NCBI GenBank assembly: GCA_029862045.1
Contig: JAOTYE010000001.1
Span: 62,001 to 126,000, forward strand
Reading direction: 5' to 3'
DNA from: Gammaproteobacteria bacterium
Lineage (GTDB): Bacteria; Pseudomonadota; Gammaproteobacteria; Steroidobacterales; Woeseiaceae
Length of the DNA: 64,000 bases
Of this stretch, positions 31,103-58,444 are shown piece by piece; the first letter of the stretch is position 1; every line of letters starts with the position of its first letter. A model generated the notes under the pieces. The model worked only from the letters and a program-made list of their open reading frames with translations. It ran no database searches and was not told the DNA's origin. A program made the position numbers and the translations under genes.

Positions 31103-31582
31103 TCACAGCGGTAATGCCGTCTCGTACTTGATCTGCCTGAGCGTAAAATCGGAGTGCACCTGTGACACGCCGCGAGCATTGAATATAACGTTTTCCAGAA
31201 AGTCGTCGTAGGCAGAAACGCTGGATGTCGCCACGCGCAAGATGACGTCGGCTGCACCCGTCGTAAAAAAACACTCCATGACCTCCGGCTGTTTGCGCAT
31301 CAATTCCGCAAACTCTACGCTCAATGCCTTGGAGTGACGCTTCAAAGAAATGTGTGCGAACACGGTTTCGCCGATACCGACCTTGATCGGATCGAGGATT
31401 GCCGAATAACGCAAAATAACCCCAGCTTCCTCAAGCCTCTTTACTCGACGCCAACAGGCTGACGGGGATAGCCCGACTTCTTGTGCCAGGTCCTGATTGC
31501 TAAGCCGCCCGTCGGCCTGCAGGACCCGCAGGATATTGTGTTCGTAGCGATCCAATGGCACCGCCTCATTTTGGTTTTTCAT
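31103..31582 (-). CDS. Lrp/AsnC-family transcriptional regulator, divergent from the beta-phenylalanine operon
   Basis: 159 residues: HTH (ILRVLQADGRLSNQDLAQEVGLSPSACWRRVKRLEEAGVI) and a RAM ligand-binding domain (IGETVFAHISLKRHSKAL ... MECFFTTGAADVILRVATSSVSAYDDFLENVIF). Members form octamers that wrap DNA and usually sense amino acids. It is divergently transcribed from a MIO-type amino-acid lyase/mutase gene, so phenylalanine or beta-phenylalanine is the natural guess for its ligand. Start at MKNQN (31582) or five codons earlier. Confidence 0.9.
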   Translation of the reverse strand: MKNQNEAVPLDRYEHNILRVLQADGRLSNQDLAQEVGLSPSACWRRVKRLEEAGVILRYSAILDPIKVGIGETVFAHISLKRHSKALSVEFAELMRKQPEVMECFFTTGAADVILRVATSSVSAYDDFLENVIFNARGVSQVHSDFTLRQIKYETALPL

Positions 31583-31595
31583 GCTCACGTGGACC

Positions 31596-31666
31596 ATTCC
31601 TTTCTAAATATCTCAAAATATGAAGAATCCTTTCTATTTTAGTCAATTTGCGAGAATAAAGGAAAG
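31596..31666. promoter_or_regulatory. Phased repeat elements in the Lrp/aminomutase divergent region
   Basis: ATTCCTTTCTAAAT (31596-31609) and AATCCTTTCTATTT (31626-31639) are direct repeats 30 bp apart. An inverted relative, AAAGGAAAG (31658-31666), follows after another roughly 30 bp. The region is AT-rich against a GC-rich background. Three-turn phasing fits wrapping by an Lrp octamer. Confidence 0.5.
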
Positions 31667-31729: not shown

Positions 31730-33346
31730 ATGATTCCCGAAGCCGTTAGCTCGACAGGATCGACCATTATTCCCGACGGCGTCAGCCTGACCGCCACGTC
31801 GATTGCGGAGGCTGCCCGCGATTTCGATTGCCGCATTGAACTGACTCCCGAAATCCGTGAGCGCGTTATTGCCTCGCGTGCCCTGCTCGACGAATTTGTG
31901 GACTCAGGCCGGGTCATCTACGGCGTGACGACGAGTGTCGGTGGCTTCGTTAACTGGCTGGTTCCGCCGGCACATGCCGAAGAGACGCAAAACAACATCA
32001 TGCGTTCTGTGCAAAGCAACTGCGGCCCCAATCTCGACGATCACTATGTGCGAGCGTCGATGCTCGCGCGCATTAACTCTCTGAGTCGTGGCTACTCCGC
32101 GATATCGATCGAGAACCTCGAAAAATATGTGCAGATGTACAATCGTGGCGTCTTGCCCTGCATTCCCGAAAAAGGATCATTGGGTACCAGCGGCGACCTC
32201 GGCCCGCTGGCATGTATCGGCCTTGTCGGCACAGGCCAGTGGCGCGCGAAGTTCGACGGCGAAATCATGTCTGGCGCCGAAGCACTGCAAAAGGCGGGCA
32301 TCGAGCCCATGAAGCTCAGCTACAAAGAGGGGCTTGCCCTTATCAACGGTACTTCGGTAATGACCGCTGTTGCCGCCTGCCTCGTCGCGGAAACCATAGA
32401 CCTGATCAAAGCGTACACGCTGGCCACCTGTTTGAGCCTGGAAGTGCACAAAGCCAAGATCATGCCGTTCAGTCCTGCCGCGCATCGGCAAAAACCGCAT
32501 GTCGGACAGGGACAAATTGCCGATTGTATTTATCGCACGCTCGACGATAGCAAGATGATCGTTCAGGATGCCGAGGTCGAAAAGTGGCTCAGAAATCTCG
32601 CCACCGACACACCTCTCGGTCTCGACCAACAGATCGAAGACGTTTACTCAATCCGCGCCACGCCGCAAATCATGGGGCCGGTGATCGATACGGCGTTGTT
32701 CGTGCGGCAAACAGTTGAAACCGAGATCAATTCATCGAATGACAATCCGCTGGTCGTCGTCGAGGACGGCGATGCCGTTCACAATGCCAACTTCCACGGC
32801 CAATACATTGCCAATGCGATGGATCAACTCGCGATCGTTCTGGTCAACATGTGCAACCTGTCGGATCGGCGTAACAATCGACTGCTTCACCCGAGCCTGA
32901 ATGGAGATTTGCCGCCATTCCTGGTCAAGGAGAACCCCGGGGTACGCATGGGGCTTATGGGCGGGCAGTTCCTGGCCACCTCGCTAACTGCTGAAATTCG
33001 CCAGATGTGTACGCCCATGTCGATTCAGTCGCTGCCATCGACCGGTGACTTTCAGGACCATGTCAGCTTCGGACTGGTTGCCGCCCGGCGTACGCGGGAC
33101 ATATTGGATAATGCACGTCATATCCTCGCCTTCGAACTGATTTGCGCCTGCCAGGCAGCGGATATTCGCGGAGTCGATCAACTAAGCTCTGCCACGCGTA
33201 CACTGCATGGCATGGTGCGCAAACACGTACCGTATCTCGACCACGACGTGCCTTTGACCGATTACCTCGAAACGATCGCCGCCATGTTTGCGAGTGGTGA
33301 GTTTCTACAAGCGGTGCCGCAAAATGTCGACAGCTATAACTGGTAG
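31730..33346 (+). CDS. MIO-dependent aromatic amino acid aminomutase (phenylalanine 2,3-aminomutase-like)
   Basis: 538 residues of the histidine/phenylalanine ammonia-lyase family. The self-processing triad that forms the MIO electrophile is Thr153-Ser154-Gly155 (GSLGTSGDLGPLA), not the common Ala-Ser-Gly; Thr-Ser-Gly is what I recall for Pantoea phenylalanine aminomutase (AdmH/PaPAM). The Tyr loop reads YGVTTSVGGFVNW, with S-x-GGF where lyases usually have GFG. SSNDNPLV and NANFHGQYIANAMDQ are conserved. Predicted reaction: L-phenylalanine to beta-phenylalanine. TAGGA precedes the ATG by 9 nt. The next gene, an aminotransferase, starts inside this one. A phenylalanine ammonia-lyase making cinnamate is the main alternative. 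Confidence 0.85.
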   Translation: MIPEAVSSTGSTIIPDGVSLTATSIAEAARDFDCRIELTPEIRERVIASRALLDEFVDSGRVIYGVTTSVGGFVNWLVPPAHAEETQNNIMRSVQSNCGPNLDDHYVRASMLARINSLSRGYSAISIENLEKYVQMYNRGVLPCIPEKGSLGTSGDLGPLACIGLVGTGQWRAKFDGEIMSGAEALQKAGIEPMKLSYKEGLALINGTSVMTAVAACLVAETIDLIKAYTLATCLSLEVHKAKIMPFSPAAHRQKPHVGQGQIADCIYRTLDDSKMIVQDAEVEKWLRNLATDTPLGLDQQIEDVYSIRATPQIMGPVIDTALFVRQTVETEINSSNDNPLVVVEDGDAVHNANFHGQYIANAMDQLAIVLVNMCNLSDRRNNRLLHPSLNGDLPPFLVKENPGVRMGLMGGQFLATSLTAEIRQMCTPMSIQSLPSTGDFQDHVSFGLVAARRTRDILDNARHILAFELICACQAADIRGVDQLSSATRTLHGMVRKHVPYLDHDVPLTDYLETIAAMFASGEFLQAVPQNVDSYNW

Positions 33347-34619
33347 CCTGCCTGATTCGCCAGCTGGAATAACTGCAAGATACCTTGAACGAACCCGGCT
33401 CAGCGCCAAGAATTATGCGCTAACCTGCAAGCTAATGCCTGGCGGCACATCGCGTCAGGCCTCGTTCTGGAAACCTTATCCGCTGACGATCGATCGCGGC
33501 AGTGGTGCACGTTTCCATGACATTGACGGTCACTCCTATCTCGACCTGATAAACAACTATACGGCGATGGTCCATGGCCATGCCTATCCAGCCATCGTCG
33601 CGGCAACTCAACAACAGATCGCCAAGGGCACGGCCTGGGCTGCGGCAAATGAACCACAGAGCCGTCTCGCCGCACTTATCGTCGATCGCATACCATCAGT
33701 CGAGCAGGTTCGCTTCACCAATTCAGGATCTGAGGCCGGTGCCCTCGCCTTCACCATCGCGCGGATAATCACCGGCAGAACGAAGTTGCTGATGGCACGC
33801 TATGGTTATCACGGTTCGCCGCTTGAATTCGAGGTCGGGTTCTTCGGCAACGAGGGTCCGATCACACACCTGGCGACCTACAACGACCTGGCGGAATTCG
33901 AAGCTGTGCTCGATGAGCATGGTCATGACATCGCCGCTGTTTTTCTTGAGCCGGTCATGGGCGCAAGCGGAATTATTCAGGGCGATCCGGACTTTCTTCA
34001 TGGTGTGCGGGCAGCCGCTCATAAGGCAGGGGCATTATTCGTGCTCGATGAGGTGCTGACGCTGCGATTCAGTAGCGGTGGCTGTCAGGCCGATATAGGT
34101 ATCGAGCCGGACCTGACGATGCTGGGCAAGATCATTGGCGGTGGATTCCCCGTCGGGGCCGTCGCCGGCAGCGCAGACACGTTGCGAATATTCGATCCAG
34201 CCGATATGAAGGTCTTTCATACGGGCACGTTCAACGGGAACCCGGTCACAATGGTCGCAGGTGAGGTATCGCTGCGCGAGTTGACGCCGGATCGCATCGA
34301 GCGCATGGAACATCTGTGTAAATCTTTGCAGTCGGGTCTCATTGCTGCGGCGAATCGGCATGGTCTGCCTTTTTCGACAAACCGCTATGGATCTTGCCTG
34401 AACATCTACTTTAGCCAGTCCGCCCCCGAATTCTCGGTGCTGCGTGATGACGACCTTCTGATGGACAGATTTCACCTTGCCTGTATCAATCATGGACTCT
34501 TTATTGCGCAGCGTGGCCTGATCGCCTTGTCGACCGTCATCACAGAAAAAGACATTGCGGAGGCGCTAGAACGTGCCGACATGGCCATGTGCGATGTGGT
34601 AGCAGAAACAGGGGAATGA
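33324..34619 (+). CDS. Class III PLP aminotransferase, beta-phenylalanine aminotransferase-like
   Basis: 431 residues of the GSA-aminomutase/class III family. KLMPGGTSRQASFW opens the domain, NSGSEAGALAFTIAR holds the phosphate loop, LFVLDEVLTLR carries the Asp that binds the pyridine, and LGKIIGGGFPVGAVAGS carries the PLP lysine. Length and the PYPLTIDRGSGARFHDIDGH block resemble Variovorax beta-phenylalanine aminotransferase more than HemL. Predicted reaction: beta-phenylalanine plus 2-oxo acid to 3-oxo-3-phenylpropanoate (benzoylacetate). ATG at 33324 overlaps the aminomutase gene by 23 bp and its TGA overlaps the thiolase ATG, indicating tight coupling. hemL is unlikely given this context. 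Confidence 0.82.
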   Translation: MSTAITGSLPDSPAGITARYLERTRLSAKNYALTCKLMPGGTSRQASFWKPYPLTIDRGSGARFHDIDGHSYLDLINNYTAMVHGHAYPAIVAATQQQIAKGTAWAAANEPQSRLAALIVDRIPSVEQVRFTNSGSEAGALAFTIARIITGRTKLLMARYGYHGSPLEFEVGFFGNEGPITHLATYNDLAEFEAVLDEHGHDIAAVFLEPVMGASGIIQGDPDFLHGVRAAAHKAGALFVLDEVLTLRFSSGGCQADIGIEPDLTMLGKIIGGGFPVGAVAGSADTLRIFDPADMKVFHTGTFNGNPVTMVAGEVSLRELTPDRIERMEHLCKSLQSGLIAAANRHGLPFSTNRYGSCLNIYFSQSAPEFSVLRDDDLLMDRFHLACINHGLFIAQRGLIALSTVITEKDIAEALERADMAMCDVVAETGE

Positions 34620-35827
34620 TGATGTTCGAACAGGTTGAGATTCCATACGGTTGTTACTGGTCTTCACCATTCGTGCGCTGGCAGGGGTCGATGCAGCATC
34701 TGCACGCGCTTAAGTTTGCTGCTCACGTCGCCCGCCGCGAGCTTGCCAAACGCGACATAGACCCGGAGTCGTTTGACGCCGGCGTTTTCGGCATGAGCGT
34801 CTATCAGCATCAGTCGTTCTACGGAACACCGTGGTTCATGGGTCTGCTCGGCGCGCCGCAAGCACCGGGGCCCACTGTGTCGCAGGTCTGTGCCTCGGGC
34901 GTCCGGGCCCTGCTCATGGGCGCCCAGGAAATTGGCAGCGGCCTTGCAAAAACAGTGCTGACTGCTACGGCGGATCGATGCTCGAACGGTCCACACACGT
35001 ACTACCCGGCCCAATCGGGACCCGGTGGGACCGGTGTTGCCGAGAATGTCGTACTCGACAGTTTTAATTGCGACCCGCTCGGCAAGCATGCCATGTTGCA
35101 AACCGCAGAAAATGTCGCTGCGAAGTTTTCGATTTCAACTGCCGAGCAACATGACGTCGTGTTACGGCGTTACGAACAATACAAGGATGCGCTCGCGGAC
35201 GATCGGGCTTTTCAGAAACGTTACATGGATTTGCCGTTCGCCATACCCGACCCGCGATTCCGCAAGACGGTCGAGGAAATTGACGGCGATCAGGGAGTGA
35301 CTGAATCAAAGGCCGATGGTCTGGCAAAACTCAAACCTGTTGTGGACGGTGGCACGGTCACATTTGGCGGCCAAACTTATCCTGCAGACGGCAACGCGGC
35401 CATCGTTATCGCGGATAGGGACAACGCCCGGGAGCTTGCCACCGATACCGCCGTGCAGATTCGAATTCTGAGCGTCGGGCAATCCCGGGCAGAATTGGGA
35501 TATATGCCAGAGGCGCCTTATGGCGCTGCTCATTCTGCTCTGCAACGGGTAGATTTGTCGTTCGACGATATGGACGCCATCAAGACGCATAACCCGTTCG
35601 CGGTGAATGACATCGTGTTTGCACGCAAGGCCAACGTGGCCCTGCAAGACATCAATAATCTCGGCTGCTCGTTGATTTGGGGACATCCGCAGGCGCCCAC
35701 TGCGATGCGATCCATCATTGAACTCATCGAGGAACTGGTCATGCGTGGTGGTGGACGCGGATTGTTTACGGGTTGTGCAGCGGGTGATTCGGCCATGGCC
35801 CTGGTCCTGGCCGTGGAGAATCGCTGA
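34616..35827 (+). CDS. Thiolase, candidate benzoylacetyl-CoA thiolase
   Basis: About 403 residues of the thiolase superfamily: nucleophilic Cys in VSQVCASGVRALLMGAQEI, THNPFAVNDIVFARK in place of the NEAFA loop, catalytic His in IWGHPQAPTAMRSI, and a second Cys in the C-terminal loop GLFTGCAAGDSAMA. Predicted to cleave benzoylacetyl-CoA with CoA into benzoyl-CoA and acetyl-CoA. Start is one of three consecutive ATGs at 34616, 34619 or 34622; AGGGGA favours the last, coupling favours the first. Unlike the two-subunit thiolase of the acetophenone route as I recall it, no DUF35 partner gene is adjacent. Confidence 0.8.
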   Translation: MMMFEQVEIPYGCYWSSPFVRWQGSMQHLHALKFAAHVARRELAKRDIDPESFDAGVFGMSVYQHQSFYGTPWFMGLLGAPQAPGPTVSQVCASGVRALLMGAQEIGSGLAKTVLTATADRCSNGPHTYYPAQSGPGGTGVAENVVLDSFNCDPLGKHAMLQTAENVAAKFSISTAEQHDVVLRRYEQYKDALADDRAFQKRYMDLPFAIPDPRFRKTVEEIDGDQGVTESKADGLAKLKPVVDGGTVTFGGQTYPADGNAAIVIADRDNARELATDTAVQIRILSVGQSRAELGYMPEAPYGAAHSALQRVDLSFDDMDAIKTHNPFAVNDIVFARKANVALQDINNLGCSLIWGHPQAPTAMRSIIELIEELVMRGGGRGLFTGCAAGDSAMALVLAVENR

Positions 35828-35846
35828 ATTGCTCCCGGAGAAGCGG

Positions 35847-37667
35847 ATGAACCCGGAATTCGCACCTGCCGAAGTAGACATCGAACACATCCCGGATGGC
35901 GGACTGATACTGCGCTCTCCTATGGAACTGGAACCCTACGCGGCAAACCTGTGCTCGTACCTCGTGGGTTGGGCGGAACAGGCGGCAGACCGGACATTCA
36001 TTGCTGAGCGAGCGGCAACGGGCGAGTGGCGCCATCTAAGCTATGACGATGCGCTCAATTCGGTTCGGGCGCTGGCCCAGGGATTGATGGATCACGACGT
36101 GAGTGTGGATCGGCCGCTCATGATTCTTTCCGAAAACAGCATTGACAATGGCTTACTACAGCTTGCTGCGATGTTCGTCGGCTTGCCCGTGGCACCGGTG
36201 TCGCCGGCCTACTCATTGATGTCGTACGATTTTGGTAAACTCAAGCACGTTTTCGATTTGCTGCGGCCGAAAGTAGTATTTGCATCCGACGGCGAGTTGT
36301 TTCGCAAAGCGCTGTCTGGCCTGAATCTGCAAGACGTCACCGTCGTCGTGACGGGACACGTACCTGACGGAATCGACGCAATACCGATAGGTGAATTACT
36401 GGCAACAGAACCGGCGCCAGCCGTCGATGAGGCGTTCTCCCATGTTGGCCCGGACACGGTCGCAAAAATTCTCTTTACGTCCGGATCGACCGGCATGCCG
36501 AAGGGAGTCATCAACTCACATCGCATGATGTGTTCCAACCAGCAGGCGATGGCCCAGGTCTGGCCGTTTATTACTCGCCGCCCGCCCGTACTCGTCGATT
36601 GGCTGCCCTGGAATCACACGTTCGGCGGCAATCACAATTTCAATATGATTTTGCGCAACGGTGGGACACTTTATATCGATAGCGGAAAACCAGCTCCGGG
36701 CCTGTTCGAGGCTACAATTGAAAATCTCCGCGAGATCGCACCGACCGTGTATTTCAACGTGCCACGCGGATTTCAGATGCTGGCACCGTTTCTGGAAAAA
36801 GACGCAGGCCTTCGCGATCAGTTTTTTTCAAACCTCGACACAATATTCTATGCGGCCGCTGCGCTGCCGCAGGATCTCTGGGAGCGTATCGAAAACCTGT
36901 CGATTGCAGCGATTGGCAAGAAGGTCGCCATGACCTCGGCCTGGGGTCTGACAGAGTCCGCACCGCTCGCCACAAGCATCCACTTTCCCGCTACGGGTGC
37001 CGGCGTGATCGGTCTGCCGGTGCCGGGGACCGAGCTGAAGATGCTGCCGAGCGAAGGCAAGATGGAACTGCGCTTGCGCGGACCCAACATGACGCCAGGT
37101 TACTTCAGGCGTGACGATCTTACCGCTGCAGCTTACGACGAAGATGGCTTTTACCGGACCGGCGATGCCGGCAAATTTGTTGATCCTGACGATCCGGCCA
37201 AGGGCATACTGTTCGACGGTCGCGTTGCCGAAGATTTCAAATTGCTTACCGGCTCATGGGTAAATACAGGGATGGTCAGGGTGGCCGCAATATCCGCTTG
37301 TGCTGAGGTGATTCAGGATGCCGTAGTCACAGGGCATGACCGTGACGAAATCGGCTTGCTGATCATCCCGAACGTCGCGGGTATGGCGAAGATCGCAGGC
37401 CTCAGTACCGAGGCACCATTGCCCGAGCTGCTGGGCAATGCGACAGCCCGGCAGACACTGTGCGATAGCCTCGCTGCACACAATTCGCAAAACCCGGCCA
37501 CGAGCACACGCATTGCCCGTTTGCTGTTTCTTGATGAGCCCCTGAGCATCGATGCCGGTGAAATCACTGACAAGGGCTACGTCAATCAGCGCGCTGTTCT
37601 CGAGCGAAGGCACGCCCTCGTGGAGCAGCTCTACAGCGATGATGCTGCAGTAATCCTGATCAACTAG
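35847..37667 (+). CDS. Aromatic acyl-CoA ligase (feruloyl-CoA synthetase-like), candidate benzoylacetate-CoA ligase
   Basis: 606 residues of the adenylate-forming family. P-loop FTSGSTGMPKGVINSHRMM, adenine motif MTSAWGLTESAPLAT, FYRTGDAGKFVDPDD hinge region, and a C-terminal lysine segment DAGEITDKGYVNQRAVL typical of feruloyl-CoA-synthetase-like enzymes. In this operon the expected substrate is 3-oxo-3-phenylpropanoate made by the aminotransferase, to give the thiolase its CoA ester. Start at 35847 has GGAG upstream and lies 19 bp past the thiolase stop. Ligation of benzoate, cinnamate or 4-hydroxybenzoate is possible; no other ligase for these acids is visible in the window. The stop overlaps the convergent hemerythrin stop. 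Confidence 0.82.
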   Translation: MNPEFAPAEVDIEHIPDGGLILRSPMELEPYAANLCSYLVGWAEQAADRTFIAERAATGEWRHLSYDDALNSVRALAQGLMDHDVSVDRPLMILSENSIDNGLLQLAAMFVGLPVAPVSPAYSLMSYDFGKLKHVFDLLRPKVVFASDGELFRKALSGLNLQDVTVVVTGHVPDGIDAIPIGELLATEPAPAVDEAFSHVGPDTVAKILFTSGSTGMPKGVINSHRMMCSNQQAMAQVWPFITRRPPVLVDWLPWNHTFGGNHNFNMILRNGGTLYIDSGKPAPGLFEATIENLREIAPTVYFNVPRGFQMLAPFLEKDAGLRDQFFSNLDTIFYAAAALPQDLWERIENLSIAAIGKKVAMTSAWGLTESAPLATSIHFPATGAGVIGLPVPGTELKMLPSEGKMELRLRGPNMTPGYFRRDDLTAAAYDEDGFYRTGDAGKFVDPDDPAKGILFDGRVAEDFKLLTGSWVNTGMVRVAAISACAEVIQDAVVTGHDRDEIGLLIIPNVAGMAKIAGLSTEAPLPELLGNATARQTLCDSLAAHNSQNPATSTRIARLLFLDEPLSIDAGEITDKGYVNQRAVLERRHALVEQLYSDDAAVILIN

Positions 37668-38233
37668 GCGACAAAAGTTTTCTCACTCACGTATTGGCTG
37701 AGCTTTTCCGCCAGCGCCCGGTATTTGGCCGGGATGCCGTTTTTGGTGTCCTCGTCAAGGACGCGCTGAAAATCATCACTCACTCGTTGCATCGTGTCCG
37801 CGGGAATAATCTGCTCCGCCATCGGAAACAACACATGGTCTTCTTTAAAAATATGTTCCCGCAGAAGATTGACGTAGTCGAACACATTGCGAACGACATC
37901 AGCTGCAGCGCTTTCGTTACCCGACTTCATCTGCTCGGCAGCCGATCGAAATGCGGCAGTGTACTGACGGCCCTCGTCGTGTTCTCGCAACATGACTGCT
38001 ACCGGTCCTGAATCCTGTGGCATGTCTCTCGCTGTCATTGCTACGAACAGAATGTCTTCTTCCTTGCGGTGGTGACATTTATCGGCGAATCCTGCAACGA
38101 ATTCGGCCGCATCGAGAAAAAAATCAGGGCTTACGACAGCGCCGCTGTCCAGGTGCGCCGCCGCCTCGTCCAGGCAGTCGAGAACTGCAACAATAAGACG
38201 ATGCTCGTCGCTGAGAATTTCTGTCGGCGTCAT
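37664..38233 (-). CDS. Hemerythrin HHE-domain protein in the benzoyl-CoA reductase operon
   Basis: 189 residues, all-helical, with the HHE cation-binding ligand spacing: LSDEHRLIVAVLDCL, FADKCHHRKEEDILF, MLREHDEGRQY and LREHIFKEDHVLFPMAEQ. Such proteins bind O2, NO or iron. The start lies 5 bp after the bcrD stop, so it is the last gene of the bcrCBAD operon. Probably it buffers oxygen around the oxygen-sensitive reductase. ATG at 38233 is chosen because the domain begins there. Confidence 0.88.
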   Translation of the reverse strand: MTPTEILSDEHRLIVAVLDCLDEAAAHLDSGAVVSPDFFLDAAEFVAGFADKCHHRKEEDILFVAMTARDMPQDSGPVAVMLREHDEGRQYTAAFRSAAEQMKSGNESAAADVVRNVFDYVNLLREHIFKEDHVLFPMAEQIIPADTMQRVSDDFQRVLDEDTKNGIPAKYRALAEKLSQYVSEKTFVA

Positions 38234-38238
38234 GTGCT

Positions 38239-39225
38239 TTACTCTTTGTTGGCTGAATTCGAAATCTCGTCCGCGGGACAGGTACTGCTCTTGGGTTCGG
38301 CCACGGTAGTCATCGGACAATCGACGCTTTCCCGGCCGAGGTCGACCGCAAGAACCGGCTTCCCTGCATCGTATGCATCCATGTCGGAAGTCGGGACGCC
38401 ATGCTTTGCCTGCAGCAGCTTGTCGTAGCGAAATGCTCCCCAGAGGGCGGCACCAATAGCGCCCGCATAGATCGACTCCGGATGATTCAGCACTTTCACT
38501 TTCAGCTTCTGCTCGATCACCTGCTCCTTCATCGCTTCAATCAGACCTTCATCCATGGCAAGGCCGCCGGTTACAAGCACCGACCCTTCGCGGGCCTTGA
38601 TGGATTTCAGAAGTTTGACGAGCCGACCTGCCATGGCAACATGAATACCTTTGAGGATGTTCGCTGTAGTAATGCCTCTCGATATCATGTTGATCACGTC
38701 GGTCTCTGCGAGAACGGCACAAATACTGCTGACGATTTCGGGATTGTCAGCAGTCTTCGAAATCGTGCCAACTTCCTCAAGCGAAACGCCGAGGTAGCGC
38801 GCGATGTTTTCGAGAAACTGTCCTGAACCCGAGGCACACTGGCTCGTCATCTTGTAAGTCAGCACCTTACCGCGCTCATCAGTCGCAATCGCCCTGCCAT
38901 GCAAGGCTCCCGCGTCAATGACGGCATTGATGCCCGGCTGAAGATAGATTGCGCCGCGTGCATGGGTCGTCATCGAGTAGAAGTGGCCAGTGCGAAACGG
39001 AATATTCTCACCGTCGCCGGTTGTCGCCACGTAATCGATTGCATCCGCGTCGAGGTCGAGTTCCGCCAGCATGCCCTCGAAAGCCTCTTTGGCGAGCACC
39101 ATCGGGTCGCGCCTGCGAATCCGACTGCAATGCCTGGCCAGCCATCTTGGCTCCCCGTCCGACACGTCAAACAGGACGGTCTTGACTGCGCCGGTGCCGA
39201 GGTCGATTCCTGCTGCAAGTGTCAT
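38239..39225 (-). CDS. bcrD: Benzoyl-CoA reductase ATPase subunit delta
   Basis: 328 residues of the BadF/BadG/BcrA/BcrD ASKHA ATPase family. GIDLGTGAVKTVLFD is the phosphate-1 motif, TSQCASGSGQFLENIARYLG and SSICAVLAETDVINM carry the two cysteines that bind the bridging 4Fe-4S cluster, and VLVTGGLAMDEGLIEAM is the adenosine motif. With BcrA it couples ATP hydrolysis to electron delivery into BcrBC. About 40 residues past the core (from HGVPTSDMDAY) form a tail not seen in the 282-residue Thauera protein as I recall it. Start at 39225 follows bcrA by 14 bp. Confidence 0.92.
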   Translation of the reverse strand: MTLAAGIDLGTGAVKTVLFDVSDGEPRWLARHCSRIRRRDPMVLAKEAFEGMLAELDLDADAIDYVATTGDGENIPFRTGHFYSMTTHARGAIYLQPGINAVIDAGALHGRAIATDERGKVLTYKMTSQCASGSGQFLENIARYLGVSLEEVGTISKTADNPEIVSSICAVLAETDVINMISRGITTANILKGIHVAMAGRLVKLLKSIKAREGSVLVTGGLAMDEGLIEAMKEQVIEQKLKVKVLNHPESIYAGAIGAALWGAFRYDKLLQAKHGVPTSDMDAYDAGKPVLAVDLGRESVDCPMTTVAEPKSSTCPADEISNSANKE

Positions 39226-39239
39226 GTCAGATCCCTTGT

Positions 39240-40553
39240 TCAGTGCAATACGACACGTTGCGCGAATGTGGCCGCACCCAGCGCGCCCGTATAGATAGAG
39301 TCCGGGTTCACGTTCATCTGGACTTTGCCGTAGTTCTCCCAGGCGAGTTCCTTCAGCACAGCCACGGCAGCTTCGTTCTTGGCAACGCCGCCGGTGAAAG
39401 TGAACTGGTCCCTGATACCGCCCGACCTTGAAAGGATCGACATCGCACGGAGAATGATCGCCCGGTGCAGGCCGGAAACGATGTCCTCCCGCTTCTCGCC
39501 CATGGATAATCGGTCGCGCAATTCCGCGCCTGCGAAAACGGTGCATGTGGAGTTGATGCGTACCTTTCGCGTCGCTTGCATTGCCATCGGCCCCAGTTCA
39601 TGCAGGCCGAGATTCATCTCATCGGCGATATAGCCGAGATAGCGGCCGCAACCCGCCGCACAGCGATCATTCATCTGAAAACTCTCGACGATACCGTTCG
39701 GATCAACCTGTATCGCCTTGGTGTCCTGGCCGCCGATGTCCAGCACGGTCGCTGTTTTCGGGTGCATGATGTGAGCGCCGAGCCCGTGGCACAGGATTTC
39801 GGAACGGATGTGTTCCTTCGAGAACGGCAGGGTAGCCCTGCCATAACCGGTGCCGACAACATAAGTCTCTTCGAACGCGGTACCCAGCACATTCTCAAGC
39901 GGCGCTCGTAAATCGCCGCGCAGCCTGGTGAATACCTCCGATCGCTTGCAGGTGCGTTCAAGCGCACTCATGAATTTCGCCTCGTCAGCACCGCTGCCGA
40001 TACGATTCTCGACCTCGATGATCGAGCGATCAAAGACATTCAGCATCGACTCGAAGCTGATTCTGCTGTCCTGGCTGGTCGACTCCGACGCGTTGGAATA
40101 CTGTGAGCCGGCGATGTCGCGGAAAAAGTCTGACTTGCGAGATGATCCGGGTTCGTACAGCTTCGGCGCTTCATCGTTGAGCTGCCGAAAAACCGCGGCG
40201 AGCAACGACCGGGTTTCCGCGCCGTCTTTTCCGAGACGATCGTCGTCTGAGCTCTCGACACAGGCTCGCTCGAGCTCGGCGAGTTGCTCCAGGTATTGCT
40301 CGAGGCGAAAATCCTGTTCGAAGTTGTTCAGGAAATTTTCCAGGTCATCTTTCAGGGCAGGCAGGTCTTTCAGCAACTCGCGAAACAGAAAAAAGCGCGC
40401 ATCCAGAAATGCTTCCTGCTTGGCGACCTCCGCGGCGATTCCGTAGTTCGAGCGTGAGTTCGTAATGCCACGCCCAAGCACTGTTTCGTCGCCGCCCAAT
40501 ACGATCGCCTTGGTCGTGGTCGAGCCGAGATCAATGCCGATAAACGTCTTCAT
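39240..40553 (-). CDS. bcrA: Benzoyl-CoA reductase ATPase subunit alpha
   Basis: 437 residues. ASKHA ATPase motifs [36 protein letters not shown] and [14 protein letters not shown] are present. Cluster cysteines lie in [19 protein letters not shown] and [14 protein letters not shown]. Length matches Thauera BcrA, including the central insertion (about 60-190) that separates BcrA from BcrD. Forms the electron-activating module of class I benzoyl-CoA reductase, taking electrons from ferredoxin. The start overlaps the bcrB stop by 4 bp. Confidence 0.94.
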
Positions 40554-41857
40554 GCTGCCGTTCTCGAGTCGCCGCGGGCCTTCTTCTGCTCGATCATCTG
40601 GAAGTAGCTCTCGAGCCGGTTCTTGACATTCGCTGGTGAGAAATAGCGGGGATCGACCAAATCAGTTTCGATAAATCCTGCCGGCTTGCCGGTACGCTCT
40701 TCGATCTCTCGCAGCATGAGTAGCTGCCCTGCCGAAAAGCTGTTGCAGCTCTTGATCGAGTTATTGAGGAAGCCATCCGCATTGTACTCTTCCATATAAT
40801 CGCAGAGCATATCGACCCGCGCCGGCAGGCTGTGATTCGTGTAACAGCCGAGACAATAGTCGGCGAGCGTCTCTATCGGGTTGTCGGGGTCGTGTCGAAA
40901 ACCATAGTCGTAGACACCACCCACCTTGGTATAGGAACTCGCGACGACAACAGCGCCTTCGTCATAAAACATCTTCCAGAAGTCACGGAAATGCGTCCAG
41001 TTCGGCGGCCCTTCTACAACGAGGCGTATGCGTTCTTCGTCCATGACACCTTCCGGCGTGACAGGACCAAGACCCTGCTCGATTCGATCCGCCACCTCTT
41101 TTCGGAGGGCAACGTAATACGCCGTCGCTTCTTTACTGCCTCGAAACGCCGAGAAGATCGGTCCGCAATAGTAGATACCGCCGAAATAGGCATCGATCGG
41201 CGACGGACGATTCTTCGCCGACTGCAGAACCCAGACAAGGTCGTCCTCTGCTTTGGCAGACTCTCTGAGGTTTTCCCGCAATCGATCGATGTCGAACTTC
41301 ACGCCACTGACACGTTCGAGCGTCGGGATAACCTGTTCCTTCAACTGCATGACGACGAAGTCACGCATGTTGTCGGTGATCTTACCGTCAGCCTGATAGG
41401 GAACGTGTAACATTGCTGTTTCACAATCGTATTGATCGCGCACAAGTTCGAACCATTTCATGAAAGTAAAACAACCGGTGTAAGACAGCAGCAGTACGTC
41501 CGGTGTCGGCAACGGCTTGCCGGTTGGCCCGAGCTGGCCCTTCGCCATCATGCCGAGATCGCTTTTTACGTAGCTGCAGACGTCTTCGGAGTGGCCGGAG
41601 CGTTCTGCCTCCATAACGTAGCCACCGCTTTTCTTCCGCATTGCAGACTGCAGCGCATTGATTTCGGGCAAATTTCGCACGAAATCAAAACACATCAGCA
41701 ATTCATTGAGATTGCCGGGTACGAATGTCGAGGAGACTTTCTTGCCTTCCTCGTGAGCCGTAGATAGCGCATCGAAATTCGCGCCAATCATCGCCTTTTG
41801 CAAAAGCATGGACTCTTCTTTTTGTACGTCTGCTTGTTGGCTCGCGGCGGTAGTCAT
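40550..41857 (-). CDS. bcrB: Benzoyl-CoA reductase subunit beta
   Basis: 435 residues of the 2-hydroxyacyl-CoA dehydratase / BcrB-BcrC family. Conserved cysteines occur in [34 protein letters not shown] and [10 protein letters not shown], some binding a 4Fe-4S cluster at the substrate site. With BcrC it reduces benzoyl-CoA to cyclohexa-1,5-diene-1-carbonyl-CoA. ATG at 41857 overlaps the bcrC stop by 4 bp. Order bcrC-B-A-D is that of Thauera. Confidence 0.94.
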
Positions 41858-43020
41858 GCGGCGCTCCAAAGTTTGATCGAATCCGCGAACGTGCCTGCCT
41901 GCTCACGAATAGGTTGTAGTTGTCCCGAGTTCTCGGCGAATTTGAATGCCGTATACGGGATGCCATGAGCGGCCAGTGCATTTTGCAGCATCGGTCTGTC
42001 GAGCAGCGCCGGATCGCAAAAACTCGGGCTCGCAAATATGACACCCTCTGCCCCGCTCCTGCGTACGGAATCGACCAGGTATTTGCCCTTGTCCTTCTTG
42101 TTCGGCACGTATTTGCAGGACGTCTCTGATGAATAAGTGATAAATGCGTCGCTCAGGTTATGGATTGGATCACCATCCATCGGGACTTCGTGAAGAAGCC
42201 AGCGCGCAACCAGCATGAAGTCATCATCGACAACATAGCAGCCGGCCATCTCGATGGACTTTAACAATCCCAATGGCGGTTGCTCACAGAACAGTCCGTT
42301 GATCACAACACGGCAGTTGTCCCGGACGGGGCGTTCAACCGCTTTGGCTGCTGCTATGTAGTCGTGGACGAGTTGCGTGTGCTCGTCGACCGGCAGCAAC
42401 ATGCCGGCACGCATCAGGAGATAGACTTCCGGTGTCGGCACTTGCCAGGGCTCCGCGGAGCGATAGGCATAGAGTTCAGCGATCACCTGACGATTCTTGT
42501 TGTACAAATCGATCGAAGCGCGAATGTCGTCGTCGCTGATTTCGTGACCCGCCAAATCAGAAAGTGCGTCGCGAAAGCCTTGCAATTCCCGCGTGTAGAA
42601 GACCCCGCCGATATCCCGATGGAAATTCTGCGGAACATCGAAATAACGAATCAGCTTGTCCTGAAACTTGAGCTGCCACATGCCGGAAAGATTTCGGATG
42701 ACATCGCAGGTACTTGGAAAAAGCATGCCGTCGAGGCAGTCGAGCCTGCCCGTAATGGCGAGTTCGATCGTTGACCGGGGAATTCGGCAGATGTAGCTCT
42801 GGTAGTAGGCATCCCCATGAATGACGTCCAGCTGATCGCCACCACCGAGAATCCCGACCGGCAACATGCCAGCGGCATGAATCAGCTCGCGCGGCACGTA
42901 GACCGGCATGTGCCCAATTACCTTGCGGTTTGCGCCAGCCTCCTTCCATGCACGGACCGACGTGAAATCCAGGTCCTCGTACAGATCCTGGCAACGTTCA
43001 ACGATGTTTTCCAAAGCCAT
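41854..43020 (-). CDS. bcrC: Benzoyl-CoA reductase subunit gamma
   Basis: 388 residues, same family as BcrB and the Thauera BcrC length. KVIGHMPVYVPRELIHAAGMLPVGILGGGD is the family N terminus; cysteines in SYICRIPRS, LFPSTCDVIRNL and ASPSFCDPALL are candidate cluster ligands. Supplies the other half of the ring-reducing module. It is the first gene of bcrCBAD-hemerythrin. The promoter region contains the 22-bp operator shared with the oah/korA region. Confidence 0.94.
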   Translation of the reverse strand: MALENIVERCQDLYEDLDFTSVRAWKEAGANRKVIGHMPVYVPRELIHAAGMLPVGILGGGDQLDVIHGDAYYQSYICRIPRSTIELAITGRLDCLDGMLFPSTCDVIRNLSGMWQLKFQDKLIRYFDVPQNFHRDIGGVFYTRELQGFRDALSDLAGHEISDDDIRASIDLYNKNRQVIAELYAYRSAEPWQVPTPEVYLLMRAGMLLPVDEHTQLVHDYIAAAKAVERPVRDNCRVVINGLFCEQPPLGLLKSIEMAGCYVVDDDFMLVARWLLHEVPMDGDPIHNLSDAFITYSSETSCKYVPNKKDKGKYLVDSVRRSGAEGVIFASPSFCDPALLDRPMLQNALAAHGIPYTAFKFAENSGQLQPIREQAGTFADSIKLWSAA

Positions 43021-44337: not shown

Positions 44338-45468
44338 CTACTTAGCCGCTCTCGCTGCGGGCAACAGACTTGTCGTAAGCTCATCGGTCCAGGGTTCTCC
44401 GGCCCCCAACGCCCGCCTGAGACCGATGAAGTCAATCTCGCGTTTGCCATCGGCCGGTTCGTTAAATGCTCTGAAACCGGCACGCGCCTCGGTCATCATA
44501 TTCAGTGCCAGCCAGGCGCGTGAATTCTCTCTGTTGGCATTCCATGCGTTCAACTTCGGTTTGCGTAATTCCTCGAGCGTTTTTGTCAGACATTCCGGAA
44601 ACATGTGAATGAATTTCGCACAATGGCGCTCTGTCATTTCATCCAGCAAGCTCAGATCGACGCTGCCTTGCTTGAGCAATACTTTTCCGGCATCGAGCGC
44701 CTCCCCGGTCTTTGCTTCGCCATGCACAATGCGGCCCCAATCATCCAGATATCGCTGCGTCTCGACCAACGGATTAGGCACATATTCGCCGTCGACTTTG
44801 AGCGCCGGAACCAGATCCGAGATGATGCCCATCCGGTATGCCTTGTGAGCAGACCAGGGCTCGCAGAGTATGCCTGAGACCATGGCTTGCTCAGCACCGA
44901 TCATGAGCGGCAGAAAATCCGTCGCGCCACCAATCGGGGCCGAGCCATGCTTTGGGCCAGCCTGACCGAAACGTGCGAGATCCTGTGCAATCGAGAAATC
45001 ACAGGCCATGCCTATTTCCTGACCGCCTCCAATGCGCATGCCATTGACCCGGCAAATGACGGGTTTGTCACAACTCAGGATCGCCGAGACCATGTCATTG
45101 AACAAGCGCATGTACTGGCGATATTCCTGTGGATTGCCCGCGTAGTATTCGGCGTACTCTTTCGTGTTGCCCCCAGAGCAAAATGCCTTGTCGCCGCTGC
45201 CCGTGAAAACCACCGTAACGACATCACGCATCGCGCTCGCCCGGCGAAACGCCAGAATGACGCCTTTGATCATCTCGGTCGTGTACGAGTTGTACTGCTT
45301 GGGGTTGTCGAGCGTTATCCAGGCATGGAAGAGTCCATCGAGTGCGGTTCCACCCGGACAGTGCGCCTGTCGACGCTCGAGTGTCACACCCGGGACGATG
45401 ACATCTTGCGTCAGATCGTAGTTCACCAGTTCTCTATCGGAGTCACTCTTGGCTGCCAGGGCATTCAT
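44338..45468 (-). CDS. oah: 6-oxocyclohex-1-ene-1-carbonyl-CoA hydrolase
   Basis: 376 residues, longer than ordinary crotonases and equal to the Oah/BamA family. The oxyanion hole is formed around AFCSGGNTKEYAEYYAGNP and the helix CRVNGMRIGGGQEIGMACDFS; GQAGPKHGSAPIGGATDFLP is a diagnostic block. It adds two waters and cleaves the ring to 3-hydroxypimelyl-CoA. Start at 45468 has AAGGAG 8 nt upstream. Operon oah-fdx, divergent from korAB-dch-had. Upstream is operator B. Confidence 0.94.
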   Translation of the reverse strand: MNALAAKSDSDRELVNYDLTQDVIVPGVTLERRQAHCPGGTALDGLFHAWITLDNPKQYNSYTTEMIKGVILAFRRASAMRDVVTVVFTGSGDKAFCSGGNTKEYAEYYAGNPQEYRQYMRLFNDMVSAILSCDKPVICRVNGMRIGGGQEIGMACDFSIAQDLARFGQAGPKHGSAPIGGATDFLPLMIGAEQAMVSGILCEPWSAHKAYRMGIISDLVPALKVDGEYVPNPLVETQRYLDDWGRIVHGEAKTGEALDAGKVLLKQGSVDLSLLDEMTERHCAKFIHMFPECLTKTLEELRKPKLNAWNANRENSRAWLALNMMTEARAGFRAFNEPADGKREIDFIGLRRALGAGEPWTDELTTSLLPAARAAK

Positions 45469-45507
45469 CAACTTCTCCTTGCTGCACTTGCTTTTCACGA
45501 ATATAAC

Positions 45508-45529
45508 GGTATTATAGTACCGAATTACG
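45508..45529. promoter_or_regulatory. Operator B in the oah / korA divergent promoter
   Basis: GGTATTATAGTACC followed directly by GAATTACG, the twin of 43044-43065. CGGTATTATAGTACCG is nearly a perfect palindrome. On the minus strand it contains TATAAT with TTGCTA exactly 17 bp upstream, a good sigma-70 promoter for oah. It ends 24 bp before the korA ATG, so a bound repressor would block both genes. Confidence 0.68.
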
Positions 45530-45553
45530 ATAATAGCAACGAAGGCACTGTAA

Positions 45554-47278
45554 ATGACAGGTCAGCCCGGCATGTCCTTTTCCGTCGCCCTGCTGGGGAA
45601 GGGTGGCGCCGGTGTCATTACTGCCGGCGACATGCTGCTGGCGGCGGCGGCACGTTGCGGATTGTATGGCCTGATGATCCGCGCGGTAGGACCGCAGATC
45701 CGCGGCGGGGAGTCGGCGGCTCTTGTGCGCTTGAGCTCGGTCCCGGTCGAATGTCTCGATGACCGCTTCGATGTGGTGCTCGGCATCGACTGGAAACAGG
45801 CCGAACAGCTGCTTTCAGAAATCGCCGTTGATGCAGACAGCATTGTTGTAACCGACCCGGCTGAAGATGCTGTGCCGCACTCGATTGCTGCATCAGGAGC
45901 GGTGCTGCGGCAACTCGAGATGAAGGAGCTTGCCGAATCGGTGAGTGGTGGCCGTGTGAACATGGTGGCACTAGGCTATGTGGCCGGCCTCGCCGGCATT
46001 TCTCAGGAAGCGATCCGGCATGCCATCGAAAAGAATATCGGCCGCAAGGGACGCCAGGCAGTCGACGTAAGCGTCGCAGCAGCGATGCTTGGCTTCTCGC
46101 GGTCACAGCGTTCGGCAGCACCGCAGACAGGCGGCGGACAAGCGGGCAATCGCTGGATGATAAGCGGCAATCATGCGACCGGGCTGGGCGCGCTGCGCGG
46201 CGGCGTGCGCTTTGCCGCGGCCTACCCCATTACACCGGCAACCGAGATTCTCGAGTGGCTCGCGCCGCGCCTGAAGGACGCCGGCGGAACCTTGACACAG
46301 GCAGAAGACGAACTCGCTTCGATCAACATGGCAATCGGTGCGTCGTATGGCGGCGTGCCTTCACTGACGGCAACCTCAGGTCCGGGCTTGTCTCTGATGA
46401 TTGAGGGACTCGGCCTCGCGGTATGTGCTGAAATTCCGCTCGTCGTCGTCAATGTCATGCGTGCGGGACCGTCCACCGGCATTCCAACCAAGCCGGAACA
46501 ATCGGATTTCAATGCAGCGATCTATGGATTACATGGCGATGCGCCGCATATCGTCGTGGCGCCGAACTCGGTGACCGACTGCGTCTATACGACGCAATGG
46601 GCCGTGCATCTCGCCGAAGCAACTCAGGCGCCGGTCATCGTTCTGTCAGATCAGTTTATCGGTCAGGCGATCGTCGTCGCCGATCCGGTGCCGGCGATTT
46701 CTTTTTTCACCAAGCGAAAAGTCGCCGAGGAGATACCCGAGGCGTTCGAACGCTACGCAATAACGGCCGACGGGATTTCCCCAATGCCGCTGCCCGGAAC
46801 AGCAGGCGGTCAATATACGGCCGACGGTCTTGAGCATAGCGCTGCGGCAAAACCTTCGGGCATCGCGAGCGACCACAGCGCGCAGCTCGACAAGCGCGCC
46901 AGGAAGATTGCCGATTTCGACTATGGCCAGCACTGGGCGGACATCGAGGGTGCGGGTGAACTCGCGATACTGACCTGGGGCTCAACGGCGAGTGTAGTCC
47001 GGGAGGCCTTGCAAAGGTTGCCGGACAAGGTGACCGGCCGCCTGAAACTCATAACGCTGCGACTGCTGCTGCCGGTCAGGCAAGAGGATATGGCCGCCGC
47101 CCTCGATGGCGTCAATCGCCTCCTGGTGATCGAGCAGAATCACACGGGCCAGTTGTATCGCTTCTTACGCGCGTGGTATGACCTGCCGGCAGACGTCGAT
47201 ACAGTGCATCGACCCGGACCCGGTGTATTCAGACCGGGCGAGATAGCCACGAGGATAGATGCATGGTGCGGCGAATGA
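45554..47278 (+). CDS. korA: 2-oxoacid (2-oxoglutarate):ferredoxin oxidoreductase, fused gamma-alpha subunit
   Basis: 574 residues. A gamma domain (1-190; GKGGAGVITAGDMLLAAAARCG, IRAVGPQIRGGESAALVRLSS) is fused to an alpha domain (from about 200; GVRFAAAYPITPATEILEWL, ATSGPGLSLMIEGLGLA, AGPSTGIPTKPEQSDF). With KorB it oxidises 2-oxoglutarate to succinyl-CoA and reduces ferredoxin, the electron source for benzoyl-CoA reduction in Thauera. Substrate is inferred from context; a pyruvate or indolepyruvate enzyme is less likely here. First gene of a seven-gene rightward operon. Confidence 0.9.
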   Translation: MTGQPGMSFSVALLGKGGAGVITAGDMLLAAAARCGLYGLMIRAVGPQIRGGESAALVRLSSVPVECLDDRFDVVLGIDWKQAEQLLSEIAVDADSIVVTDPAEDAVPHSIAASGAVLRQLEMKELAESVSGGRVNMVALGYVAGLAGISQEAIRHAIEKNIGRKGRQAVDVSVAAAMLGFSRSQRSAAPQTGGGQAGNRWMISGNHATGLGALRGGVRFAAAYPITPATEILEWLAPRLKDAGGTLTQAEDELASINMAIGASYGGVPSLTATSGPGLSLMIEGLGLAVCAEIPLVVVNVMRAGPSTGIPTKPEQSDFNAAIYGLHGDAPHIVVAPNSVTDCVYTTQWAVHLAEATQAPVIVLSDQFIGQAIVVADPVPAISFFTKRKVAEEIPEAFERYAITADGISPMPLPGTAGGQYTADGLEHSAAAKPSGIASDHSAQLDKRARKIADFDYGQHWADIEGAGELAILTWGSTASVVREALQRLPDKVTGRLKLITLRLLLPVRQEDMAAALDGVNRLLVIEQNHTGQLYRFLRAWYDLPADVDTVHRPGPGVFRPGEIATRIDAWCGE

Positions 47279-48108: not shown

Positions 48109-48638
48109 GCAATACTGGTAAGAATGCATCGCAGAACTTCACGCAGACCGAGCTGTTGGTCCACGCGCTGGTCATCGAACTGGAAGCCGTGCAGAGCTAC
48201 AAGGATCTGGCGGAGCAGATGGAGCAGTGCGGCAATACTGAAGTTGCCGCGTTGTTCGACAAGATGTCGAAACTGGAGGCCGAACACGCGGAGAAGATTC
48301 GCGAGGCAGCGGGAGACGTGGAGCTTACTGAGCTTCCACCATGGGAATATCGCTGGCCAGGCCTCGAGCCTCCCGAGAACATCGATCTCGCGGGCGTGCA
48401 TTATCTGATGACGCCGCATCAGGCACTCGAGCTTGCGCTGGAAAACGAATTGAGCGCGATGGCGTTCTTTGACGCAATCGCACATGACAGTACGGATGAT
48501 CAGGTCGGCTCGCTGGCACAGGAGTTCGGTGACGACGAGCGCCAGCATGTCGCCTGGATGAAAGAATGGCTGGCGAAATATCCGCCGCCAGATGATGACT
48601 GGGACTACGACCCGGATCCACCGGCGGCGATTGACTAG
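48105..48638 (+). CDS. Ferritin-like diiron protein (rubrerythrin-type domain)
   Basis: 177 residues. A four-helix ferritin-like domain with paired carboxylate ligands: LVIELEAVQSYKDLAEQM with KLEAEHAEKI, and LALENELSAMAFFDAIA with FGDDERQHVAWMKEW. There is no rubredoxin domain. The C terminus is rich in Pro and Asp. Such proteins reduce peroxide or store iron. It lies between korB (4-bp overlap) and dch, so it is co-expressed with the anaerobic ring-reduction enzymes, and oxygen or peroxide protection is the likely purpose. Confidence 0.85.
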   Translation: MSNTGKNASQNFTQTELLVHALVIELEAVQSYKDLAEQMEQCGNTEVAALFDKMSKLEAEHAEKIREAAGDVELTELPPWEYRWPGLEPPENIDLAGVHYLMTPHQALELALENELSAMAFFDAIAHDSTDDQVGSLAQEFGDDERQHVAWMKEWLAKYPPPDDDWDYDPDPPAAID

Positions 48639-48652
48639 CCTGGAGCCTGCAC

Positions 48653-58442: not shown

Positions 58443-58444
58443 GA

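Follow-up and report, generated by a model that had tools for sequence, protein, structure and literature searches.

A block of four genes that is probably a peripheral catabolic module for L-phenylalanine was identified at positions 31730–37667 of the window (the whole 64,000-nt stretch of DNA analysed). Judged from the gene sequences, which suggest both the enzyme substrates and the direction of flow, the block would convert L-phenylalanine to benzoyl-CoA without passing through cinnamate or phenylacetate. This route, via β-phenylalanine and benzoylacetate, was put forward in the original prediction and is the best supported interpretation. It is backed by the relatives of the predicted mutase (MUT) and the aminotransferase (AT), by conservation of the block across classes, and by its co-occurrence with genes that consume benzoyl-CoA. 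With somewhat less confidence, we consider it likely that the conversion is redox-neutral and carbon-conserving, yielding benzoyl-CoA and acetyl-CoA via (S)-β-phenylalanine and benzoylacetate, and that the block is an Lrp-controlled, horizontally moving module carried by uncultured proteobacteria of marine and sediment origin and, in diverged form, by one MAG titled Deltaproteobacteria, serving both oxic (Box) and anoxic (Bcr) metabolism; MUT would then be the first catabolic aromatic MIO aminomutase. Known roles of MIO aminomutases lie in the biosynthesis of antibiotics, enediynes, and taxol, and to our knowledge no aromatic one has previously been assigned a catabolic use. No description of the pathway was found in the open-access literature searched, in line with the original prediction, whose author knew of no described catabolic pathway of this form.

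Organization of the gene block

The block and its divergent neighbor comprise the following genes:

31103..31597, minus strand: Lrp/AsnC-family regulator, divergent from the block (PF01037/PF13404)
31730..33346, plus strand: MUT, MIO enzyme, predicted L-phenylalanine 2,3-aminomutase forming (S)-β-phenylalanine (TIGR04475, AdmH/PaPAM similarity, motifs)
33324..34619, plus strand: AT, class III PLP aminotransferase, predicted to convert (S)-β-phenylalanine to benzoylacetate (VpAT/MesAT/StoTA similarity, arginines, tree)
34616..35827, plus strand: THI, thiolase, predicted to convert benzoylacetyl-CoA and CoA to benzoyl-CoA and acetyl-CoA (PF00108/PF02803, motifs)
35847..37667, plus strand: LIG, AMP-forming aryl-propanoid acyl-CoA ligase, predicted benzoylacetate-CoA ligase (PRK12582)

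All four block genes are intact, and the gene set named in the original prediction was confirmed by the family assignments (MIO enzyme, PF00221; class III aminotransferase, PF00202; thiolase; acyl-CoA ligase, PRK12582). The start of AT was taken as the ATG at 33324; the longer ORF begins at 33288. The genes had been described as overlapping and as lying in reaction order. Overlap was found at two of the three junctions, MUT/AT (23 nt) and AT/THI (4 nt, ATGA), whereas a 19-nt gap separates THI from LIG. The claim about order was wrong: the genes run MUT-AT-THI-LIG, whereas the reactions must run MUT-AT-LIG-THI, because a thiolase requires a CoA ester and the ligase step has to come first. A 132-bp intergenic region (31598–31729) separates MUT from the divergent Lrp gene. 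A promoter and terminator scan gave matches at chance level.

Proposed pathway and related routes

Phenylalanine is one of the common amino acids of proteins. In the proposed pathway, L-phenylalanine would be isomerised by MUT, on its MIO group, to (S)-β-phenylalanine, which AT would transaminate to benzoylacetate. LIG would then form benzoylacetyl-CoA at the cost of ATP, which may pull the two near-equilibrium steps and outpace the spontaneous decarboxylation of benzoylacetate to acetophenone. Finally, THI would split benzoylacetyl-CoA and CoA into benzoyl-CoA, to be taken by Bcr (anoxic) or Box (oxic), and acetyl-CoA. The side-chain carbons would thus leave as acetyl-CoA with zero loss of CO2, and no oxidoreductase would act before benzoyl-CoA.

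The known anaerobic degradation of phenylalanine proceeds through phenylpyruvate, phenylacetyl-CoA, and phenylglyoxylate to benzoyl-CoA (PMC9765128). It shares the end product and the downstream Bcr genes with the proposed pathway, but takes more steps, several of them oxidations, and releases two carbons as CO2. In the degradation of acetophenone and ethylbenzene by Aromatoleum aromaticum (Apc, Bal, and an unidentified thiolase, with EbA2314 and EbA5319 as candidates), benzoylacetate is likewise converted by a CoA ligase and a thiolase through benzoylacetyl-CoA to benzoyl-CoA (PMC4729919). There, benzoylacetate arises by carboxylation of acetophenone, whereas the block starts at an amino acid and no Apc carboxylase genes were found in or beside it in the window; LIG is likened to Bal by its predicted reaction. 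If the proposed pathway is true, it provides a four-enzyme entry for phenylalanine that keeps all carbon, requires neither oxygen nor extra oxidation, and feeds ring cleavage under oxic as well as anoxic conditions. MIO aminomutases would then gain a place in primary catabolism, (S)-β-phenylalanine aminotransferases and benzoylacetate-CoA ligases would acquire a physiological function, and THI would become a candidate for the missing benzoylacetyl-CoA thiolase.

The predicted aminomutase and the aminotransferase

The top NCBIfam model for MUT is TIGR04475 (D-β-phenylalanine mutase); its score of 732.1 bits falls short of the cut-off of 800, yet leads the next-best model by 275 bits. The best solved relative is AdmH/PaPAM (3unv, 566 bits, vs. 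318 for tyrosine mutases), to which MUT shows 54% amino acid identity (504 aa), in agreement with the PaPAM type originally assigned. Aligned with 3unv, MUT has the motifs of AdmH: the MIO triad TSG (153–155), the catalytic-Tyr segment IYGV, and DFQD. The tyrosine-selective position is occupied by Val, not His, in MUT and all its relatives, which disfavours tyrosine as the substrate. In andrimid biosynthesis, AdmH/PaPAM provides β-phenylalanine for an NRPS, whereas MUT adjoins catabolic genes. AdmH is reported to form (S)-β-phenylalanine (PMC3903478). Since MUT is closest to AdmH and AT is closest to (S)-β-phenylalanine aminotransferases, the stereochemistry of both steps fits, and MUT is predicted to be an L-phenylalanine 2,3-aminomutase producing the (S)-isomer. 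EncP serves as an ammonia-lyase, although its active-site architecture is described as that of an (S)-PAM, so sequence does not discriminate between mutase and lyase activity in MUT; an EncP-type lyase route to benzoyl-CoA, absent from the original prediction, competes seriously for the first step.

The best solved relatives of AT are 4ao9 (VpAT, 271 bits), 6iz9 (266), 2yku (265), and 6k8h (261); VpAT, MesAT, and StoTA rank at the top and all outscore the best GSAM (248). These three also rank first by fold with the AlphaFold model (pLDDT 84.8). Arg45, Arg398, and Lys270 (P0002 numbering) are invariant in the alignment and correspond to the VpAT substrate arginines Arg41/Arg398 and the PLP lysine; both arginines are missing from HemL (L054). 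In the tree, AT forms its own clade (99/99), sister to VpAT/MesAT (96/94) but outside that clade proper, and it shares only 39% amino acid identity with VpAT. The predicted resemblance to β-phenylalanine aminotransferase is thus borne out, and AT is a putative (S)-β-phenylalanine aminotransferase yielding benzoylacetate. Assignment to HemL (glutamate-1-semialdehyde aminomutase) was rejected on the score (285 bits vs. the hemL cut-off of 527), the fold ranking, the arginines, and the tree. In Variovorax, Mesorhizobium, and Paraburkholderia, VpAT and MesAT allow β-phenylalanine to serve as a nitrogen source, with acetophenone arising by decarboxylation of the keto acid (PMC6150868). The (S)-selective transamination of β-phenylalanine to a β-keto acid is the same, but no mutase and no dedicated ligase or thiolase are described in those systems.

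Benzoyl-CoA genes and recurrence of the block

Genes for benzoyl-CoA consumption lie downstream of the block:

37664..38320, minus strand: hemerythrin-domain protein, convergent with LIG (PF01814)
38239..43020, minus strand: bcrDABC, ATP-dependent benzoyl-CoA reductase, the anaerobic benzoyl-CoA consumer (TIGR02261, 02259, 02260, and 02263, all over cut-off)
44338..50508, mixed strands: lower benzoyl-CoA pathway and electron supply, with oah (minus), 2-oxoacid:acceptor oxidoreductase alpha/beta (plus), cyclohexadienecarbonyl-CoA hydratase (plus), and had (plus) (TIGR03200, 03710, 03189, and 03201 over cut-off)
57003..61138: boxB (minus), boxC (minus), and a BzdR/BoxR-type regulator (plus), the aerobic benzoyl-CoA consumer (TIGR03225, TIGR03222, and PRK08154 over cut-off)

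The block had been said to abut bcr and box genes. This holds for bcr, from which it is separated by the single hemerythrin gene, but is loose for boxB/boxC (57003–60127), which lie 19 kb away. A hemerythrin-domain gene also stands beside bcr in L004.

Copies of the block occur in further genomes with 59–93% protein identity; therefore the four-gene grouping is not due to chance. They are found in Gammaproteobacteria and Alphaproteobacteria and, in diverged form, in the MAG titled Deltaproteobacteria. The search of genomes for a conserved block, suggested with the original prediction, thus found it across classes. The complete MUT-AT-THI-LIG arrangement was found in the window and five other loci (L003, L006, L007, L013, and L026), and L005 has it with a second MUT inserted. 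All close copies come from uncultured genomes. MUT opens the block and is its most constant component, accompanied by the divergent Lrp gene even where other members are missing (L011, L012, and L019). The Lrp gene lies divergently 5' of the block in most relatives as well; its product is likely the regulator of the block and probably an amino-acid sensor.

Of 196 genomes from the order, five have MUT, and AT is present in precisely these five. All five carry boxB (13/196 overall; Fisher p 5.6e-7, uncorrected for relatedness), and three carry bcrC (9/196 overall; Fisher p 6.5e-4, likewise uncorrected). Among 20 genomes examined individually, boxB was over cut-off in 16 and bcrC in 14. G602 and G603 have MUT without boxB or bcrC over cut-off and without the module AT, THI, and LIG. 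G600, G606, and G610 have MUT, THI, and LIG, with VpAT-type aminotransferases (53–58%) in place of the module AT. G595, G601, and G549 have MUT-AT-LIG and no THI homologue, so another thiolase must serve there. In a phylum-wide sample of 399 genomes, MUT reached the threshold in the window genome alone, so this sample gave no comparison.

The thiolase, the ligase, and alternative readings

THI reached no cut-off of the named thiolase equivalogs BktB (116.5 bits vs. 725), PcaF, PaaJ, FadA, and PhaA. Its residues Cys92, HNPF (325–328), GHP (356–358), and Cys387 are invariant, and its AlphaFold model (pLDDT 71) indicates only a general thiolase fold. Relatives of THI also occur in unrelated-looking clusters; because four genomes without MUT have them beside other genes, THI was rejected as a pathway-specific marker. 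A hydantoinase-type gene pair by the THI homologue in G610 (L045) was first taken for Apc and then dropped, as its best model is caprolactamase (684 bits vs. 348 for ApcC). LIG belongs to PRK12582 (feruloyl-CoA-synthetase type; 807.6 bits, cut-off 777) and is 44–48% identical to plasmid genes annotated as feruloyl-CoA synthase. Benzoylacetyl-CoA and benzoylacetate are the presumed substrates of THI and LIG, respectively.

The main rival is a catabolic twin of the enterocin pathway, in which MUT would be an EncP-like ammonia-lyase, LIG would form cinnamoyl-CoA, an unlinked hydratase and dehydrogenase would lead to benzoylacetyl-CoA, and THI would cleave it. EncP makes cinnamate despite its (S)-PAM architecture, and enterocin producers use a ligase, a hydratase, and a thiolase (PMC8773403, PMC6413883). 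The named relatives of LIG are feruloyl-CoA synthases, relatives of THI and LIG adjoin a fused hydratase/dehydrogenase in G422, and THI shares 39% identity with a thiolase of a type II PKS cluster that also has an aromatic ammonia-lyase. The enterocin route of Streptomyces maritimus (EncP, EncH, EncI, and EncJ) resembles the block in starting from L-phenylalanine with a MIO enzyme, in its aryl-propanoid CoA ligase, and in releasing benzoyl-CoA from a C6-C3 CoA ester, but it is biosynthetic, passes through cinnamate, and has a hydratase and no aminotransferase. In the block, an aminotransferase would replace the hydratase and dehydrogenase, and the product would go to Bcr or Box. Consistent with the original prediction that these steps are skipped, no hydratase (including the enoyl-CoA hydratase of the enterocin set) or dehydrogenase gene was found inside the window block or any copy. 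A cinnamate route would also offer no explanation for the AT gene that is conserved between MUT and THI, and in the order sample AT is present wherever MUT is and nowhere else. We regard this route as unlikely.

Considerably less probable is that the block degrades exogenous β-phenylalanine or other 3-amino-3-aryl acids from peptides or antibiotics, with MUT running backwards or as a side branch. MIO mutases are reversible, AT, LIG, and THI alone would be enough, and TRAP transporter genes lie by the L016 and L018 copies; however, the first position and constancy of MUT with its divergent Lrp gene argue against it. A biosynthetic role, supplying β-phenylalanine for a natural product, is very improbable, and so is activation to β-phenylalanyl-CoA before transamination. 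NRPS clusters are the other known setting of AdmH-type mutases, and one such mutase on a Roseibium plasmid lies next to NRPS genes, but no NRPS or PKS genes were found near copies of the block, and bcr adjoins it in the window, L004, and G605. A CoA-dependent β-transaminase is on record (PMC3149608), but both carboxylate-site arginines are kept in AT, as for a free acid. Equally improbable is tyrosine or another aryl-alanine as the true substrate, leading to 4-hydroxybenzoyl-CoA: a 4-hydroxybenzoyl-CoA-reductase-like gene set is present in the window (52360–56503, below cut-off), but the Val at the selectivity position of MUT speaks against it, and AdmH acts on phenylalanine.

Gene organization and identity of the encoded enzymes

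Four intact, co-directional genes at 31730-37667 of the window encode a MIO enzyme predicted to be an aminomutase (MUT), a class III aminotransferase (AT), a thiolase (THI) and a CoA ligase (LIG).

31103-31597, divergent from the block: Lrp/AsnC-family regulator
First gene: MUT, 538 aa
Second gene: AT, 431 aa, counted from ATG 33324
Third gene: THI, 403 aa
Fourth gene: LIG, 606 aa

MUT and AT overlap by 23 nt and AT and THI by 4 nt; a 19 nt gap separates THI from LIG. The original prediction placed the genes in reaction order, which fails for the last two: THI precedes LIG on the DNA, and LIG precedes THI in the reactions.

The closest solved structure to MUT is the (S)-beta-Phe mutase AdmH (PaPAM; 566 bits, 54% identity); tyrosine mutases reach 318 bits and the top-scoring classical histidine lyase 259. 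MUT carries a TSG triad and a DFQD motif and, like its relatives, has Val where tyrosine enzymes have His. Because its TIGR04475 score (732) lies under the cut-off of 800, MUT is AdmH-like rather than a proven member of that family.

Four proteins head the solved relatives of AT, namely VpAT, StoTA and two constructs of MesAT, with all glutamate-1-semialdehyde aminomutases (GSAM/HemL) ranking below; a comparison based on an AlphaFold model (pLDDT 84.8) puts this group first as well. ATs of the block's own type (module ATs) form a single clade (99/99) with the VpAT/MesAT group as sister (96/94). Equivalents of VpAT Arg41 and Arg398 are invariant across module ATs and missing from HemL; the roles of these arginines are taken from the published VpAT structure. 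A second, VpAT-type aminotransferase (47% to VpAT) is encoded elsewhere in the window's genome (L049; G000:C33:80197-81393), adjoining an acetyl-CoA acyltransferase gene.

THI conserves the thiolase residues Cys92 and Cys387, the HNPF box and GHP, and falls in no named thiolase equivalog. LIG scores over the PRK12582 cut-off and shows 44-48% to genes annotated as feruloyl-CoA synthase. In genome G422, a TetR gene separates a THI relative (59%) from a LIG relative (47%) and a fusion of enoyl-CoA hydratase with hydroxyacyl-CoA dehydrogenase, a setting that phenylpropanoid beta-oxidation would lead one to expect. A type II PKS cluster on a Pseudonocardia plasmid (L061; NZ_CP013856.1 62824-79972), reminiscent of enterocin biosynthesis, contains an aromatic ammonia-lyase together with a THI relative (39%) that shares the motifs of THI. 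Both contexts fit THI as a 3-oxo-3-arylpropanoyl-CoA thiolase. THI relatives in G477, G512 and G610 adjoin B12-type mutase and molybdenum-hydroxylase genes; the family is therefore not limited to aromatic substrates. Three catabolic-looking loci (L043, L044, L045) combine an HNPF-type thiolase with B12-dependent acyl-CoA mutase, acyl-CoA dehydrogenase and xanthine-dehydrogenase-family genes, and L045 also has caprolactamase-like genes.

Proposed pathway

We infer substrates for all four enzymes: MUT would convert L-Phe to (S)-beta-Phe, AT would transaminate this to benzoylacetate and Glu, LIG would form benzoylacetyl-CoA (ATP to AMP), setting the catabolic direction, and THI would release benzoyl-CoA and acetyl-CoA. 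AdmH yields (S)-beta-Phe (PMC3903478) and beta-Phe transamination, where known, is (S)-selective (PMC6150868), so the stereochemistry of MUT and AT is compatible. Benzoylacetate decarboxylates spontaneously to acetophenone (PMC6150868); prompt activation by LIG therefore makes sense.

MUT might instead act as an ammonia-lyase feeding a cinnamate route. EncP has an (S)-PAM-type architecture, yet enterocin biosynthesis uses it as an ammonia-lyase (PMC6413883, PMC8773403), and AdmH has lyase activity at elevated temperature (PMC3903478), so sequence cannot separate mutase from lyase. This route, the main rival, is less likely than the benzoylacetate route: it would give AT no explanation and would require hydratase and dehydrogenase genes outside the block, unlinked to it. 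AT is the gene that discriminates between the two routes; that it occurs in exactly the genomes that have MUT speaks most strongly for benzoylacetate as the intermediate.

Each single step of the benzoylacetate route has precedent; the four-step combination was not found described in the open-access papers searched. Anaerobic Phe degradation is known to pass through phenylacetyl-CoA and phenylglyoxylate (PMC9765128). We file the block as a predicted new peripheral pathway into benzoyl-CoA, made of known enzyme families.

Distribution and conservation of the block

MUT and module AT occur in an identical set of 5 of the 196 genomes of the window's order (Fisher p 4e-10, ignoring relatedness), spread over three families. 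The aerobic marker boxB is present in 13 of the 196, including all five with MUT (p 6e-7), and bcrC, of the anoxic ATP-dependent benzoyl-CoA reductase, in nine, including three of the five (p 6e-4), both Fisher tests again ignoring relatedness. MUT reached threshold in none of the 20 other genomes listed from the window's genus, which suggests horizontal transfer of the block. Genomes G602 and G603 have MUT and lack boxB, bcrC over cut-off, module AT, THI and LIG; they are natural controls for the association of the block with benzoyl-CoA pathways. G600, G606 and G610 carry MUT, THI and LIG without module AT, and each has a VpAT-type aminotransferase (53-58% to VpAT). Such genes also occur in genomes that possess module AT (the window's genome G000, G596 and G597), so this finding is supportive, not decisive. 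At L011:12273-14748, a genome that lacks box and true bcr has its mutase close to a benzoyl-CoA-reductase/hydroxyacyl-CoA-dehydratase-like pair, which a TetR gene precedes.

Scanning a single genome for each species yielded 18 loci. MUT-AT-THI-LIG is complete in the window and at L003, L006, L007, L013 and L026; at L008 the contig ends within THI, and L005 has an extra MUT inserted. Other arrangements are MUT-AT-LIG (L010, G549, and L004 with a near-identical counterpart in G523), MUT-THI(-LIG) (L009, L015), AT-THI-MUT2 (L018) and, among diverged copies, MUT-AT-MUT2 with or without THI (L014, L016, L017). A divergent Lrp gene is present at nearly all loci. Block, bcr and box share one contig in G594 and G595, as do a bcr cluster and the diverged module in G605, the genome of L014 (a MAG titled Deltaproteobacteria). 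L004 carries XdhC-type maturation genes after LIG.

Second MIO mutase paralogues within blocks (L005:3107-4690, L014:9962-11581, L016:10016-11617, L017:2354-3955, L018:9953-11587) retain the MIO triad, and their selectivity position is again Val; they may serve the other enantiomer, another substrate or a heteromer. The first mutase copy of L016 (6762-8497) is broken into two reading frames, through a frameshift or assembly error. On a Roseibium plasmid, an NRPS cluster (L060; NZ_CP045635.1 1363-22913) has an AdmH-like mutase accompanied by a methylaspartate mutase E gene and an amino acid racemase.

Genomic surroundings

Upstream of the block lie paaX, paaZ and paaABCDE. On the downstream side, a hemerythrin-domain gene comes first, then bcrDABC, oah, genes for a 2-oxoacid:acceptor oxidoreductase and a dienoyl-CoA hydratase, and had; farther on lie a gene set resembling 4-hydroxybenzoyl-CoA reductase and, with a BzdR-type regulator, boxB/boxC. 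Oxic and anoxic consumers of benzoyl-CoA are therefore found within the same 30 kb. The reductase-like set (52360-56503) is a three-subunit molybdenum enzyme, every subunit of which scores below curated cut-offs. A 2376-aa protein (11305-18435) gave zero matches in a Pfam search at E up to 1e-5. At 4279-7572, two proteins on opposite strands each combine cytochrome c and periplasmic binding domains in one chain.
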